DNA of 64,000 nt from Nitrosopumilus ureiphilus (lineage in GTDB: Archaea > Thermoproteota > Nitrososphaeria > Nitrososphaerales > Nitrosopumilaceae), in the NCBI RefSeq assembly GCF_013407185.1, contig NZ_CP026995.1:2024954-2088953 (forward strand), in the 5' to 3' direction. The notes under the pieces were generated by a model. The model was not told where the DNA came from. It searched no databases and saw nothing but the letters and a program-made list of their open reading frames with translations. Positions 18,237-24,420 of this stretch are shown here, in pieces (position 1 is the first letter of the stretch; every line of letters begins with the position of its first letter). The translations under genes were made by a program, and so were the position numbers.

Positions 18237-21200
18237 TTAACCAGAAGTACAACCACTGTAACCGCATTCAATGCAAATACTACAACCTTCTACAAAGATT
18301 AGATTGTTTTTGCATGTTGGACATAGACGATCTTCTGAAACCTCTTCATGTTTTTGGGATTCTATTTTGATTTCTTCGTCATGAACTTTTAATGCAAGTG
18401 AAGCATTGACTTGGGATTTGATGTAAGGATTTGTGATGTTTTCAGTGACAAAAGCAGTCATGTACTGACTTGGCGATACTTCAAATATCTTTGTTGCATT
18501 TTCACTGGTCATATGAAGGACTTGTTTGTGTCTAGAACCGTCACGATAAACAGTCATTCCTTTTAGTCCTATTTCATGTGCAAGCAGATATGCAGATTTC
18601 ACATCTTCTACTGTTACATCATATGGCATGTTGATTGTTTTTGCAATTGCATTTCCAATCCAGTCTTGCCATACACCTTGAGCCATAAGATGATCAGCCC
18701 AGTGAATATCCATTGCAGTAACAAATACATCTTGCATCCATTGAGGAATTTCGTCTAATCCTTTCAATGAACCATAATTGTCTGCAATCTTTTCAAGAAT
18801 TTTATCAGTGTAAAGACCTTCTTCTTTGAGAGCTTCTTCTAGAATCTTGTTTGTATAGAAGAATCTTCCAACAGTTACTCTCTTCTCAAATACAAGAGCA
18901 AATGCAGGTTCCATTCCATTTGAACAGTCTGCAATCATTGAGAGTGTACCAGTTGGAGCTACCGTAGTAGTTAAGACATTTCTGATACCATGTTTTTTGA
19001 TTTTATCAATGAGTGGATCCCATTCATAAGAATGAGATTTTTTTGGTTTCTCATAGTATCCTGAAATTGGAATCTTACCTTCTGGGTATTCTGTGTTAGA
19101 ACAGAGTGGAAACTCACCACGAGATTTAGCAAGTGCTACACTTTCTTCCATTGAATAGTATGATAGGGCTTCAGACAGTTTTGATTGTAGTTCATATCCT
19201 TCTTGAGAATTGTATGGGATTTTTAGTTTGTATAAGAGATCAGCTACTCCCATCACTCCAAGTCCAATACGTCTAGATTCTTTTGATGCTACACTAATTT
19301 CTGGTACTGGATATGTATTGACATCAATGATGTTATCCAAGAATCTTGTTGTCTTTCTGATTGTTTCTTCATATCTTTGCCAATCAAACTCGTAAGTTCC
19401 ATCTGCTTGTCTCTTGACGAGATTCACCAAGTTGATAGAACCTAGATTACATGATTCGTATGGATAGAGACTTTGTTCACCACAGTTGTGGGCAATGATA
19501 CCGTTTGCATCAAAGGCATTCACTTGAGGTACTTGAACATCATATACCTCTTCAATCCCTTCATCCACAAGGCTTACAACCGTTGCTACAAACCTCTCTC
19601 TGTTGAGATTTCTCTTGTAATCTCCAAGTAACACACCTAGTTTTTCCATTTTTGAAGAATCTGCAAAGCCGATTACATTGTGGAAACGTAAGAGGTTCTC
19701 TTCAGATATGACAAGTTCATGTTGAGATTTGATATGATATGCCTTCATTCCGCCCTTACCGTCTGGCAGCAGTTTCTCTTGCTCTCTCCTTCTGTTTGTA
19801 TATATCTTTGATGCAATACCGAGTCGCAGTAGCATACGTTGGACAGCTTGTAGTACTTTTAGATCACTTTGTGCTAGACGTACAGATACGCCTTTTTGTT
19901 GGCTACCTATTACAGTTCCATCTGCATCAAATAAACCTCTCAGAAATCCTTTGTAGAATGCTGATGATGTTTTCTCCATACTTTCAGTTATTGTTTTGTT
20001 CTTGTATCCTAATCCTAATGATTTGGCAAGATCCCTTATTGATGCCAGTGATAGTCGGTATTCATCACGTCCTTTGATCTTTGTCCAACCTCTAAAGTCA
20101 GATCTATGTGGCATTTGTTGGGCATATTGTAGTATCTGGTTTCTTACAGCAACGTTTCCAGTACTTTCCCCCCATGAAGAAATAACCACATTGTCTTTTT
20201 TAATGTGACCATCGCCTACCGTTAGCCCCAACATATATCCTTCATCTTCACCAAACCTTCCATCCCATTCATAGTATCTACAGTCATCAAGAACAATATG
20301 TTCACCTTGTTTTAGATCTCTTGCTTGTTTCCATTCTGACTTTAGTGTGTATCTATTCATGTGTTTAACAGCCAGAATTTTATGATCTTCTGTTAGATGT
20401 AGTTCGTAGCCCTCTTTTGTTTTTAGTTTGAATATCTTCTTGGTGCCGGTAGAAAAGAAGCCTTTTGTATTCCATGTCTTCCCATTCAGATAAGACTTGA
20501 ATGGAACTCCTACAAGTTCCCTGACCTTTCTTGGACCATCTGCTGTTGCTACCCATGTATCTGCAGTTACGCATGGATTTGTGGCTCTTAGGGGTGCTTT
20601 TCGGGCTTTTGCAAATACATTGTATTTGTTAATTTGATCAAAGAAGATCAATCCAGGTTCTGCACTCTTCCATGCAGAAAGTGCAATCAGATCAATTAGT
20701 TGATGTGCATTGATTTCTTTAACTGGTTTTTTGTCACGTGGACTACGTAAGACATAGTTACCATCAGTAGTATTTACTAGTGCATGCCAAAAGTCTTCCC
20801 AGATACCAACACTTACGTTAAAGTTTTCTAAAACGCCTGGTTCTGTTTTGTTTGTAATGAATTTTTCAACATCAGGATGCCATGCTTCAATAATTCCCAT
20901 GTTTGCACCACGTCTTTTTCCTCCTTGTTTGACTACTTCAGTCACGGTATTGATGATATTCATGAAAGATACTGGTCCAGATGCAACACCTGAAGTGGAT
21001 GCTACAATGTCGCCTTCCTCACGAAGATTAGAATAGTTGATTCCAACACCACCACCAGACTTGAAGATTAATGCTGCATCAGAGGTAGATTTCATGATTT
21101 GCTCCATGCCATCTTCCATTCCAAGTACAAAGCATGCAGATAGTTGTCCTAATCTTCCACCTGCGTTCATCATAGTTGGTGAATTTGGTAGAAAGTCTTG

Positions 21201-21977
21201 TGCAGTCATCAGCTCAAAGTATTCAGCGATTTTGTCTGCATAACTATCAAGTTTCTTTCCTGCAAGTAATGTCAAGAGATCTTTGAAGCTTACTTTCATT
21301 TGACCTTTGTTTGCAAGAGTCACGTAGTGGTTGATTAAAGATCTAAAATGCCATTTATTGAAGAAATAATCTCCTACTTTGAATTTATAATCAAAGGCAT
21401 CTAGCTTTTCAAGATAAGATTTTGCTTCTTCTACGTCTTGTTTGATATTTCCTGATTTGTCAAAGACTTGTGAATCATATAGAATATCACCAATTCCTAC
21501 CAGAATTGCAACACGCTCAAACATTTGAGTTGGAGATTCAATAATCTCATTTTTTGCATTTCTGAAAAGATATCTTGATGCTAGAACCCTAAGACAATTC
21601 AGATCAAACTTTTTGGAAACTGGGTCAAGGGTCTTTAGATTCAAGACCTTCATTTTCTCTTCTCTTAGTTTTCTTCTCTCATGTCTGTAAACGATGTATG
21701 CTTTTGCAATATCGCTATTTCCACTATCAATTAAAGTAGATTCTACAATATCCTGGATATCTTCAACAGTAGGCGTTCTACTGCTGGTAAATCCTTGCTC
21801 AACTAGTTTGTTTACTACATTCTCTGCTAGTTGATCGGCCAGGCCACGATCGGCTTTGGAGGTGGCGGCCAATGCCCGAAATATGGCATTTGAAATTTTA
21901 TTTTTATTGAAAGCCGTGACTGCGCCACTGCGCTTACGGATCTCACTGATCGTATTTTCAATTTGTGTATTGTCCAT
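18237..21977 (-). CDS. nrdJ: Adenosylcobalamin-dependent (class II) ribonucleotide reductase with intein
   Basis: This 1246-aa precursor makes deoxyribonucleotides from ribonucleotides using a cobalamin-generated thiyl radical, with no need for oxygen. Residues 12-105 form an ATP-cone regulatory domain. The catalytic barrel shows LPNSPTMMNAGGRLGQLSAC, FKSGGGVGINYSNLR, KRRGANMG and, split by an intein, NP/CGEQSLYPYESCNLGSINL. Later come APTGTLSMIADCSNGMEPAF and KGMTVYRDGSR. The C-terminus ends in a zinc-ribbon-like CPTC...CIECGYSGC. The intein (residues 469-831) interrupts the NPCGEQ active-site loop. The ATG has a strong Shine-Dalgarno sequence, unlike many leaderless neighbours. An HTH/ATP-cone/NrdD-like gene lies 213 bases upstream. 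Confidence 0.96.
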   Translation of the reverse strand: MDNTQIENTISEIRKRSGAVTAFNKNKISNAIFRALAATSKADRGLADQLAENVVNKLVEQGFTSSRTPTVEDIQDIVESTLIDSGNSDIAKAYIVYRHERRKLREEKMKVLNLKTLDPVSKKFDLNCLRVLASRYLFRNAKNEIIESPTQMFERVAILVGIGDILYDSQVFDKSGNIKQDVEEAKSYLEKLDAFDYKFKVGDYFFNKWHFRSLINHYVTLANKGQMKVSFKDLLTLLAGKKLDSYADKIAEYFELMTAQDFLPNSPTMMNAGGRLGQLSACFVLGMEDGMEQIMKSTSDAALIFKSGGGVGINYSNLREEGDIVASTSGVASGPVSFMNIINTVTEVVKQGGKRRGANMGIIEAWHPDVEKFITNKTEPGVLENFNVSVGIWEDFWHALVNTTDGNYVLRSPRDKKPVKEINAHQLIDLIALSAWKSAEPGLIFFDQINKYNVFAKARKAPLRATNPCVTADTWVATADGPRKVRELVGVPFKSYLNGKTWNTKGFFSTGTKKIFKLKTKEGYELHLTEDHKILAVKHMNRYTLKSEWKQARDLKQGEHIVLDDCRYYEWDGRFGEDEGYMLGLTVGDGHIKKDNVVISSWGESTGNVAVRNQILQYAQQMPHRSDFRGWTKIKGRDEYRLSLASIRDLAKSLGLGYKNKTITESMEKTSSAFYKGFLRGLFDADGTVIGSQQKGVSVRLAQSDLKVLQAVQRMLLRLGIASKIYTNRRREQEKLLPDGKGGMKAYHIKSQHELVISEENLLRFHNVIGFADSSKMEKLGVLLGDYKRNLNRERFVATVVSLVDEGIEEVYDVQVPQVNAFDANGIIAHNCGEQSLYPYESCNLGSINLVNLVKRQADGTYEFDWQRYEETIRKTTRFLDNIIDVNTYPVPEISVASKESRRIGLGVMGVADLLYKLKIPYNSQEGYELQSKLSEALSYYSMEESVALAKSRGEFPLCSNTEYPEGKIPISGYYEKPKKSHSYEWDPLIDKIKKHGIRNVLTTTVAPTGTLSMIADCSNGMEPAFALVFEKRVTVGRFFYTNKILEEALKEEGLYTDKILEKIADNYGSLKGLDEIPQWMQDVFVTAMDIHWADHLMAQGVWQDWIGNAIAKTINMPYDVTVEDVKSAYLLAHEIGLKGMTVYRDGSRHKQVLHMTSENATKIFEVSPSQYMTAFVTENITNPYIKSQVNASLALKVHDEEIKIESQKHEEVSEDRLCPTCKNNLIFVEGCSICIECGYSGCTSG
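19485..20573 (-). mobile_element. Intein with LAGLIDADG-type homing endonuclease in nrdJ
   Basis: Residues 469-831 of the precursor (363 aa) form an in-frame intein. It begins at Cys in NP|CVTADTWVATADG (block A) with EDHKILA as block B, carries two dodecapeptide-like endonuclease motifs (YMLGLTVGDG and FLRGLFDADG), and ends with block F/G VYDVQVPQVNAF and NGIIAHN before the +1 Cys of CGEQ. All splice-junction residues (Cys1, penultimate His, terminal Asn, +1 Cys) are present, so splicing looks intact, and the two aspartates of the endonuclease are present. Insertion in the catalytic NPCGEQ loop makes splicing essential for enzyme function. Confidence 0.94.
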
Positions 21978-21992: not shown

Positions 21993-22138
21993 ATGCTTAG
22001 AACCAATGTGGATATAACTTATGTGCTCGAAAAGTTTTGATCTTGTCCCGTCAATGAGTCAATTTTTTTAACACCGCTACTATGAATTTCATACTGGCAT
22101 AACTTTGACGATAGTAAGGAAGATCGCCTCATCTGATT

Positions 22139-22165
22139 CTGATCAAAAATTTTTGAAAAATGATC
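22139..22165. promoter_or_regulatory. GATC-spaced motif upstream of nrdJ
   Basis: On the minus strand: GATC, a 17-base A/T spacer, then GATCAG, with CTAG just before it. The same arrangement (GATC-N16-GATCAG preceded by CTAG) occurs at 24395-24420 in front of the upstream regulator-like gene. It is a candidate operator. Confidence 0.45.
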
Positions 22166-22190
22166 GTAACTAGTTTTTCATTTACGAATA

Positions 22191-24353
22191 TCAGACAACA
22201 TATGGAGACTTGCACTTTGGACATTTATCCTCAAATGGTTCATCCTTAAATCCACATTCGCCACATATCGCAATTTTTCTTACAGGCTTGAAAGAAGTTG
22301 TAAGTTCTGATGCTTTCTCTAATGATTTTTTGATATCTGCAATTTTTGCATCATTATCAATTTGCAAAGTCACGAGTAATCCTCCACTTAGAATTTTTGA
22401 GAGCTTGTTAGCCTCTACTATAGACTCGCTTTTGTTAGTATAATTGGAAATTTCAGAGGCATTGATGACTATTCCCTGAGAATAAGAGTCACCCTCCATT
22501 GAATTTAAGGAAGAATTTTTGCCATATTTTTCGCCATCCAGAGTAGCAAAACGAGCAGATGCTTCAGTTTCAGTCATACAAATTGCAACAGTATCACCTA
22601 ATTCTTTGCCTTTTTTGACTCCAACATCAACTGCAGTTTCAATTACCTTATGAAGAATATCACGTCCTTCTTTATTATCTTGGAATCCAAGGATGTTAAA
22701 CACAGACTCTTTGAGTCCTACCAAATTTACAACAAGTGAAACAGAACTTCTTTGCATATATTGTGTATTCTTTGCAAGAATTGGGTTTAGTCCTCTTCTT
22801 GTAAGATCTGAGATCTCTTTCTTTCTTAATGCCATAGATGATAGTGCAGGTTTCATTAGTAATGCAAGTCTTGCCCTAAAGTAAGTTTCATCTTTGTTTG
22901 ATTCAAATGCAAGTCTTGGAAGATTTATTGAAACAGATTCCAAGTTTATCGAAAGTGGAGTTGTGATCTTTGTAGATCCATTTGTAACACCAGAGCTAGA
23001 AGTTTGACCTTTAGCAAACATTACATGTCCACCAATGGAAATTATTTCAGCTATTGATTCTGAAACATCAGTAATTTTTCCTTTGTCAACATCTACTATC
23101 AGGCCAATTTTTGGAATTGGTGTAATTTTTGTGTAATTTTTGTATGCATTGATAATTGAATTAATTATTTTTGTATCAGTTCCTAATTGTAATCTAATTG
23201 ATACCTTTGTACTTGTTTTGTTGTATTTTGCAGTTGTAGATGCAGTTGCAAATGCATCTGTGAGTTTTTGTTCAAGTTCTGTAAGAGACTTTGAATGCTT
23301 TGTAAATAATTGTACCAGTCCATCAATTACAACTTCTTGTGAAGCTTCTTTTGAAAGAAGAGCAATAACAATAGATAATGAACTTGTAATGTCATCAAGT
23401 TGTTTTGATGCAGGAATTCTTGATACATCAAGATATTTTCCACCAAGATTAATTCCATCCTCGATTAATTCTTTGACATTTACAAATATTGTATCAGGAA
23501 TCATAGACCAAATTCCAGGATTAGTGATATGCAAGTCTCCAGAAAGATGAGAATCTGCTACATCTTTTGGCAAGATATTTGTAAGTAGGTGTTCAGCAAA
23601 CACTCTTTGTCCTGTGTTAAAGAGGAGGCCTTCAGCACCATTATCGACATTATCTAAATTAGAAATCATCTCTTGAACGTCATAAACAGGCAGGCCTAGG
23701 CGTGCAAGTTTGTTCCTGTATTCCTCATGGCCATGCTCAAGGAGAACAGAATTTACCATTTCTCTGATAAGTGAGCCAGTAAGATAGGTAGTCTGATATT
23801 TGTAAATTCTATTTTCAACCTCTTCAGTGATTTTTTGTGCAAGCTCCAATGGAAGACTTCCTTCACGAACTAATGATTGAATAATTTTATGTGAATTAAA
23901 TTCCTCAATTGATTGATGAGATGTTCTAACATACATTTTTCCACTTTCAATAATTGATCTTTCCTCGATTTGTCTTGCCAAACTTAAAACTAGTTTTCCA
24001 AGATTTGTAATTGTGTATCGTCTTTCAGATTTGTTTAGTGCAACAAGTGATTGTCTGAGTAATTTTCTCAAGTGATATGCAAATTTTCCACTTTCCTTTT
24101 TTGACTTGAATCCTGCCAGAGATTTTAACTCAGAATAGGTCAAAGGTCCTTTAGAATTTAAGATTCTAAGAATATCGATTCTGTTCGGACTTGCCATTAC
24201 AGAGAAGATCATCCTTACACGTTTTGATGTAGATTGTAAAATTCCACTTCTCTTTGGTGATGAATCAGAGTCCAGGTCAGATTCTAAATCTAAATCGTCA
24301 TCATCTAAGTTAGCATCCATATCTAATTCTAAATCTTCATCACTCATTTTCAT
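22191..24353 (-). CDS. HTH + ATP-cone + NrdD-like protein, probably a dNTP-sensing regulator
   Basis: Residues here are counted from ATG 24353, 19 residues inside the longest frame (start 24410). An acidic tail is followed by an ArsR-like winged helix (about 43-130: IFSVMASPNRIDILRIL, FAYHLRKLLRQS), an ATP-cone (about 140-225: EEFNSHKIIQSLVREGSLP, TYLTGSLIREMVN), then about 480 residues resembling class III ribonucleotide reductase (GDLHITNPGIW, SINLPRLAF, TETEASARFATLDGEKYG) and a four-Cys zinc site CGECG...CPKC. The protein stops five residues later, with no glycyl-radical motif, so it is unlikely to be a working NrdD. It lies directly upstream of nrdJ on the same strand. I infer a DNA-binding sensor of nucleotide pools. 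The start choice rests on a TATA box at 24371-24385. Confidence 0.85.
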   Translation of the reverse strand: MKMSDEDLELDMDANLDDDDLDLESDLDSDSSPKRSGILQSTSKRVRMIFSVMASPNRIDILRILNSKGPLTYSELKSLAGFKSKKESGKFAYHLRKLLRQSLVALNKSERRYTITNLGKLVLSLARQIEERSIIESGKMYVRTSHQSIEEFNSHKIIQSLVREGSLPLELAQKITEEVENRIYKYQTTYLTGSLIREMVNSVLLEHGHEEYRNKLARLGLPVYDVQEMISNLDNVDNGAEGLLFNTGQRVFAEHLLTNILPKDVADSHLSGDLHITNPGIWSMIPDTIFVNVKELIEDGINLGGKYLDVSRIPASKQLDDITSSLSIVIALLSKEASQEVVIDGLVQLFTKHSKSLTELEQKLTDAFATASTTAKYNKTSTKVSIRLQLGTDTKIINSIINAYKNYTKITPIPKIGLIVDVDKGKITDVSESIAEIISIGGHVMFAKGQTSSSGVTNGSTKITTPLSINLESVSINLPRLAFESNKDETYFRARLALLMKPALSSMALRKKEISDLTRRGLNPILAKNTQYMQRSSVSLVVNLVGLKESVFNILGFQDNKEGRDILHKVIETAVDVGVKKGKELGDTVAICMTETEASARFATLDGEKYGKNSSLNSMEGDSYSQGIVINASEISNYTNKSESIVEANKLSKILSGGLLVTLQIDNDAKIADIKKSLEKASELTTSFKPVRKIAICGECGFKDEPFEDKCPKCKSPYVV

Positions 24354-24370
24354 GTTTTTTTTCTTGACTA

Positions 24371-24385
24371 AGGAGTAAATAAGAC
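24371..24385 (-). promoter_or_regulatory. TATA box of the HTH/ATP-cone/NrdD-like gene
   Basis: The minus strand reads CTTATTTACTCC, centred about 24 bases upstream of ATG 24353, which supports that start as leaderless. A GATC-spaced motif lies immediately upstream. Confidence 0.5.
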
Positions 24386-24394
24386 TTGTGACTA

Positions 24395-24420
24395 GATCAT
24401 TTCTGAACAATTTTGATCAG
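24395..24420. promoter_or_regulatory. GATC-spaced motif upstream of the HTH/ATP-cone gene
   Basis: The plus strand reads GATC-N16-GATCAG with CTA just before it, matching the motif at 22139-22165 in sequence and spacing. It ends 13 bases from the TATA box, where an activator or repressor could act, so autoregulation is plausible. Confidence 0.45.

Follow-up and report, generated by a model that had tools for sequence, protein, structure and literature searches.

The window, the 64,000-nucleotide stretch of Nitrosopumilus ureiphilus DNA analysed here, carries a 720-residue reading frame, hereafter the regulator, immediately upstream of nrdJ, which encodes a class II (adenosylcobalamin) ribonucleotide reductase and follows on the same strand after about 214 bp. 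We found no other active reductase gene, and no other class I/II-type gene, in this genome. The genome also yielded no true NrdD and no match to NrdR (TIGR00244), and no NrdR scored above the curated cut-off in Nitrosopumilaceae. An intein occupies residues ~470–831 of the nrdJ product and carries a LAGLIDADG endonuclease domain; most other NrdJ proteins in the order are ~880–930 residues long and seemingly intein-free.

Table 1. Genes, protein domains and candidate cis elements at the regulator–nrdJ locus (window positions).
Feature	Position	Strand	Remarks
nrdJ	18237..21977	(-)	class II (adenosylcobalamin) reductase with intein
TATA-like sequence of nrdJ	22010..22019	(-)	AGTTATATCC; conserved in most relatives
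nrdJ upstream element	22059..22080	(-)	GTAGCGGTGTTAAAAAAATTGA; best conserved noncoding element before nrdJ over Nitrosopumilaceae; alternative operator candidate
GATC-N17-GATCAG	22139..22165	(-)	26 bp past the regulator stop codon; at the same position in close relatives
Regulator gene	22194..24353	(-)	720 aa; winged helix-turn-helix, ATP-cone, NrdD body (predicted dead) and zinc site
Regulator start and stop	ATG at 24353, stop codon 22191-22193	(-)
Zinc site and C-terminus	22194..22286	(-)	C697/C700/C711/C714; no glycyl-radical loop
NrdD-like body, residues 240-690	22284..23636	(-)	T288, V456, H-I-T-N
ATP-cone, residues 141-215	23709..23933	(-)	V142, E150, K156 kept; Lys-Arg replaced by T144-S145
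Winged helix, residues 43-140	23934..24227	(-)	identical in 29 Nitrosopumilaceae genomes
Regulator promoter core (TATA-like)	24376..24394	(-)	TAGTCACAAGTCTTATTTA; conserved; ~22 bp before ATG; unique in genome
GATC-N16-GATCAG	24395..24420	(+)	abuts the conserved promoter core of the regulator

Pfam profiles placed an HTH_20/DUF7347 domain at residues 49–123 of the regulator (above cut-off), an ATP-cone at residues 140–212 (34 bits against a cut-off of 25.8 bits) and an NRDD match of 89 bits, also above cut-off, that extends to residue 716. The NCBIfam NrdD equivalog scored 83.5 bits against a cut-off of 326. By profile, the DNA-binding domain resembles the winged helix of ArsR/SmtB-type proteins, but it scored 23.5 against the cut-off of 55 for HTH_metalloreg, the metal-sensing NCBIfam model, and thus is not of the metalloregulator type. 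We also built a family profile from 53 members for structure matching. Its best match over the body among NrdDs of known structure was S. thermophilus NrdD (1.7e-38), and its N-terminal part matched the ArsR structure 6j05 at 0.004. A model of the regulator from the 53-member alignment had a mean pLDDT of 79, with values below 50 only at residues 1–39 and in two short turns, and its best 36 PDB matches were all class III reductases. Because profiles and structure matches lead to the same enzymes, the body is a genuine NrdD fold, more than a short-motif likeness. These results bear out the first-pass annotation, which had described an ArsR-like winged helix joined to an ATP-cone and a class III reductase body, with an NrdD-type zinc site, directly upstream of nrdJ.

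To compare residues, 132 family members were aligned with 17 true NrdDs, which came mostly from the same loci. T. maritima NrdD has its triphosphate site, HYHD, at 111–115 and its radical on Gly621, and its Cys125 is said to be conserved in every known reductase (PMC4493059). The Cys125 equivalent was found in none of the 132 members (T288 in the window protein) and in 17/17 NrdDs. The finger-loop thiyl Cys, at the GCR/CCR position, was present in 24 members (V456 in the window protein) versus all 17 NrdDs, and the C-terminal Gly in 18 members versus 16 of the 17. No member carried the full set of Cys125 equivalent, finger-loop Cys and Gly, which 16/17 NrdDs possess, yet the four zinc cysteines were present in 129/132 members. 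In the window protein the substrate-phosphate HxHD motif reads H-I-T-N. Besides the four zinc-site cysteines this protein has just one other, C592, and its chain ends 6 residues past the last zinc Cys, with the glycyl-radical loop gone. The earlier description of this end was correct in the missing radical motif and off by one in its count of five residues. Likewise, all 20 further members that we inspected in the order's other families have no finger-loop Cys and end within about a dozen residues of the zinc site. The annotation had asked whether the radical Gly and catalytic Cys are lost across thaumarchaea, and none of the 132 proteins retains a complete set. We rejected an active NrdD identity for the regulator on these residues; judged from the alignment, the catalytic fold appears to be dead across the whole order and beyond.

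Eight Bathyarchaeia members (L106, L112, L114, L118, L121, L124, L136 and L149) have both a finger-loop Cys and, close to the C-terminus, a Gly, and lack the Cys125 equivalent; they are possible intermediates in the loss of catalysis. At another locus (L047, 8889-10931), the NrdD that adjoins the regulator has no C-terminal Gly region in its frame, and a downstream ORF of 166 aa weakly matches NrdD, which is possibly a frameshift or a split gene.

The family was present in 147 of 200 genomes sampled from the phylum; a handful of the weakest hits counted here are possibly true NrdD. Within the order it was found in 111/121 genomes and in 84 of the 87 of good quality, and named relatives are mostly from Bathyarchaeota and Hecatellales. 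A tree that combined 34 members with 32 NrdDs, that of E. coli among them, placed all members together on the same side of a branch with full support. The tree was made by a quick method and has some long branches, and we read it with caution as pointing to one origin for the family, apart from catalytic NrdD. The ATP-cones of the family carry the motif VRTS and resemble those of one archaeal NrdD group (VRTS, VRGT), not the usual KRDG type; this likeness hints that the family may descend from that group. Decay of the body is stepwise across the family: the NRDD score is as high as 253 bits at one end and undetectable at the other, in shorter proteins with the winged helix retained. Four short relatives of 590–632 aa (L063, L064, L065 and L066) have the same winged helix, and the NrdD profile was undetectable in the two that were scanned (L063 and L066). 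One further protein (L062) likewise retains only the HTH and a weak ATP-cone.

We examined the genes next to the regulator in other genomes. nrdJ was the next gene in all 30 order loci of the first set (29 in Nitrosopumilaceae; L032 belongs to a sister family) and in all 20 further loci from other families of the order, giving 50/50. The NrdJ neighbours in the further loci are only 29–64% identical to the window NrdJ and match different NCBIfam subtypes, so the adjacent reductase is not a single orthologue throughout. Outside the order, 91 loci had room for a same-strand gene directly downstream, and this gene was nrdD in 15 and nrdJ in 2 (examples of reductase linkage are L033, L045, L053, L082, L099, L040 and L104). 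The order loci share ancestry, so their counts are not independent; what carries weight is the constancy of the regulator beside a reductase of changing class and subtype. Most Bathyarchaeia copies do not adjoin a reductase gene. Many Bathyarchaeia copies (L034, L037, L038, L042, L054, L073 and others) are convergent with a pyrB-like carbamoyltransferase gene, and in other lineages the convergent neighbour is ornithine carbamoyltransferase-like. We take this conserved neighbour of the Bathyarchaeia copies, named from its sequence, to be an aspartate/ornithine carbamoyltransferase; its opposite strand rules it out as an operon partner.

A feature that goes beyond the first-pass annotation is the conservation of the winged helix. 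All 98 residues from 43 to 140 are identical across 29 Nitrosopumilaceae genomes from some nine genera, although synonymous differences occur in 20–51% of the winged-helix codons in the 12 genomes checked. Across the same genomes the NrdD-like body differs at 4–45% of its residues, and identity falls to 71% in the part of nrdJ compared and to 55% in the regulator body. In further families of the ammonia-oxidiser type, the winged helix is 94–98% identical and the body 30–44%. The regulator as a whole is under purifying selection (dN/dS 0.05–0.11). Thus constraint at this locus is strongest on the DNA-binding part and weakest on the former enzyme. Such a pattern would be expected of a regulator whose sites are conserved and perhaps numerous, and not of an enzyme. 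Conservation this extreme suggests that the winged helix has more targets than nrdJ.

The annotation had also drawn attention to GATC-spaced motifs before both genes, and both copies are present, at 22139-22165 and 24395-24420, in opposite orientations relative to the genes. The spacing GATC-N16/17-GATC occurs three times in the window against 2.1 expected, which is not unusual; with the trailing AG it occurs twice against 0.30 expected (2 of 100 shuffles). Nine GATCs fall within ~390 bp of the two intergenic stretches, versus 35 in all 8.1 kb of intergenic window DNA, and GATC half-sites were the main non-A/T words common to both upstream regions in 18/29 genomes, in a search where controls came close behind for gapped words. 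The expected conservation in relatives was found in part: the nrdJ-side copy lies exactly 26 bp past the regulator stop in Nitrosopumilus-type genomes, but the motif is absent from other families of the order in which the winged helix is 94–98% identical. The motif is therefore more than chance in close relatives and not phylum-wide, and its absence beside a nearly identical winged helix rules it out as a phylum-wide operator and makes it a weak operator candidate.

Two other elements are candidates at the same promoters. The nrdJ element, GTARCGGTGTYAA(N)TTGA, lies ~40 bp upstream of the TATA-like sequence and is unique in the genome. The promoter core of the regulator, TAGTCAYAAGTCTTATTTA, is only ~22 bp from the ATG, which suggests a leaderless transcript. 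A genome-wide search with the best nrdJ element and the promoter core turned up no further clear site for either and hence no regulon, and no DNA motif was found that tracks the winged helix across the order. On present evidence the GTARCGG element (GTAGCGGTGT) is a doubtful operator, the GATC element is slightly more doubtful in that role, and the promoter core is unlikely to be one. A search of Rfam gave nothing near the gathering score between the regulator and nrdJ, and we discarded a riboswitch or other known RNA there.

The ATP-cone of the regulator keeps V142, E150 and K156, which correspond to V48, E56 and K62 of NrdR, and has Thr-Ser (T144-S145) in place of NrdR K50-R51, the pair that contacts the inner nucleotide. 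Catalytic archaeal NrdDs have the same Lys-Arg replacement. NrdR, which represses reductase genes in bacteria, and the regulator are both ATP-cone proteins tied to reductase genes, with nucleotide sensing and self-control presumed; however, NrdR is only ~150 aa long, lacks a reductase body and binds DNA through a zinc ribbon at its N-terminus, whereas the regulator would bind DNA through an ArsR-like winged helix and has a full NrdD fold attached. In common with NrdD, and by shared ancestry, it has an ATP-cone and, after it, the 10-stranded barrel and the zinc site, but it lacks the catalytic cysteines, HxHD and the glycyl-radical loop and has gained the winged helix. We would class it as neither protein, because it fails the catalytic tests for NrdD and the zinc-ribbon test for NrdR. 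Winged helices fused to enzyme folds are known from B. subtilis PurR, which has a phosphoribosyltransferase fold, and from GabR, which has an aminotransferase fold. Like these proteins, the regulator joins a winged helix to a repurposed metabolic enzyme fold that would sense metabolites of its pathway; it differs in that the fold is that of a ribonucleotide reductase and in having a second, dedicated nucleotide-sensing domain. We found no description of this domain architecture in the open-access literature, the part that we searched, which does not prove its absence.

In NrdR, oligomer changes driven by ATP and dATP through the ATP-cone gate DNA binding, and in Streptomyces the NrdR gene precedes nrdJ (nrdRJ) (PMC9110341). 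The ATP-cone of P. copri NrdD moves its enzyme between dimeric and tetrameric states (PMC11226230). We consider it probable that the window protein is an NrdR-like, nucleotide-sensing transcription regulator of reductase genes that arose from a dead class III reductase. Its DNA binding, ligand, target and sign of regulation are what we infer in the following scheme. The winged helix would bind DNA at the reductase operon, with other sites probable as well, and the ATP-cone would read the nucleotide pool, switching oligomeric state with ATP or dATP as in NrdD and NrdR. The dead NrdD body would serve as a dimerisation scaffold and relay that alters the presentation of two winged helices. Joining the gating known from NrdR to the dimer–tetramer shift of NrdD gives the simplest reading, in which the ATP-cone and NrdD dimer scaffold would set the spacing of the paired winged helices by ATP and dATP. 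The likely output would be control of nrdJ and of the regulator itself, with repression at high dATP as by NrdR. The first-pass annotation had likewise proposed that the catalytic fold was recruited as a sensor of nucleotide pools that controls nrdJ and itself. The regulatory side of this proposal is strengthened by the dead fold, the constrained DNA-binding fusion and the linkage to two reductase classes; the sensing of nucleotides is still putative, and the GATC operator that went with it fared less well.

The protein could instead be a global DNA-binding regulator that acts mainly elsewhere (on replication, on the cell cycle or at many promoters) and that has stayed linked to reductase genes because both serve the supply of DNA precursors. 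Conservation of the winged helix beyond that of nrdJ, over the 29 genomes and in the other ammonia-oxidiser-type families, argues for this, as do the many unlinked Bathyarchaeia copies. Against it stand the linkage, found in many lineages, to reductase genes of two classes and the uniqueness of the candidate motifs in the genome, although these candidates may not be the true motif; we regard a global role of this kind as possible but rather unlikely. Adjacent genes would also suit a post-translational regulator, whose NrdD-like body or ATP-cone binds NrdJ and modulates its activity and whose winged helix is mainly autoregulatory. Both proteins carry ATP-cones, and ATP-cones mediate oligomer contacts in reductases (PMC11226230). 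Such a partner is improbable, since the NrdD-like body is the least conserved part of the regulator and the same family stands beside distant reductase types, which argues against a specific protein contact.

Least probable by far is a divergent but active class III reductase with an acquired winged helix. Ammonia oxidisers are aerobic, no member of the family has the Cys125 equivalent, and the window protein has lost the Gly loop and HxHD as well. What speaks for activity is the NRDD score above the Pfam cut-off, the Gly and finger-loop Cys that 18 and 24 of the 132 members retain, and the absence of a finger-loop Cys from T. maritima NrdD itself (PMC4493059). Returning to the NrdR-like regulator, we tentatively propose a wider form that we hold with less than even confidence: a phylum-wide family, evolved once from a dead reductase, may do the job of bacterial NrdR through an allosteric domain that reads ATP and dATP, and in ammonia oxidisers its frozen winged helix may control nrdJ together with a wider DNA-replication regulon.

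NrdR passed the curated cut-off in only 13 of the 200 phylum genomes, all from one family, and the regulator may explain how DNA precursor supply is matched to demand in most of the phylum. If so, the allosteric machinery of an enzyme was copied and turned into a transcriptional switch for that enzyme. The assignment also corrects an annotation, since profile searches call the protein an anaerobic reductase, a name that would wrongly imply that aerobic ammonia oxidisers make DNA anaerobically. The protein, promoters and ligands are defined and now allow a direct test.

On one contig labelled Njordarchaeum guaymaensis (L074), the regulator shares 69% identity with its counterpart in a Bathyarchaeia genome, possibly through a binning error or mislabel. 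Viral contigs (IMG/VR) gave a sole, weak match, a distant NrdD relative of 34% identity (L236, 3001-5436). Stand-alone ATP-cone-like proteins of ~92–115 aa are encoded in several genomes of the phylum (G016, G024, G062, G069, G131, G161 and others).
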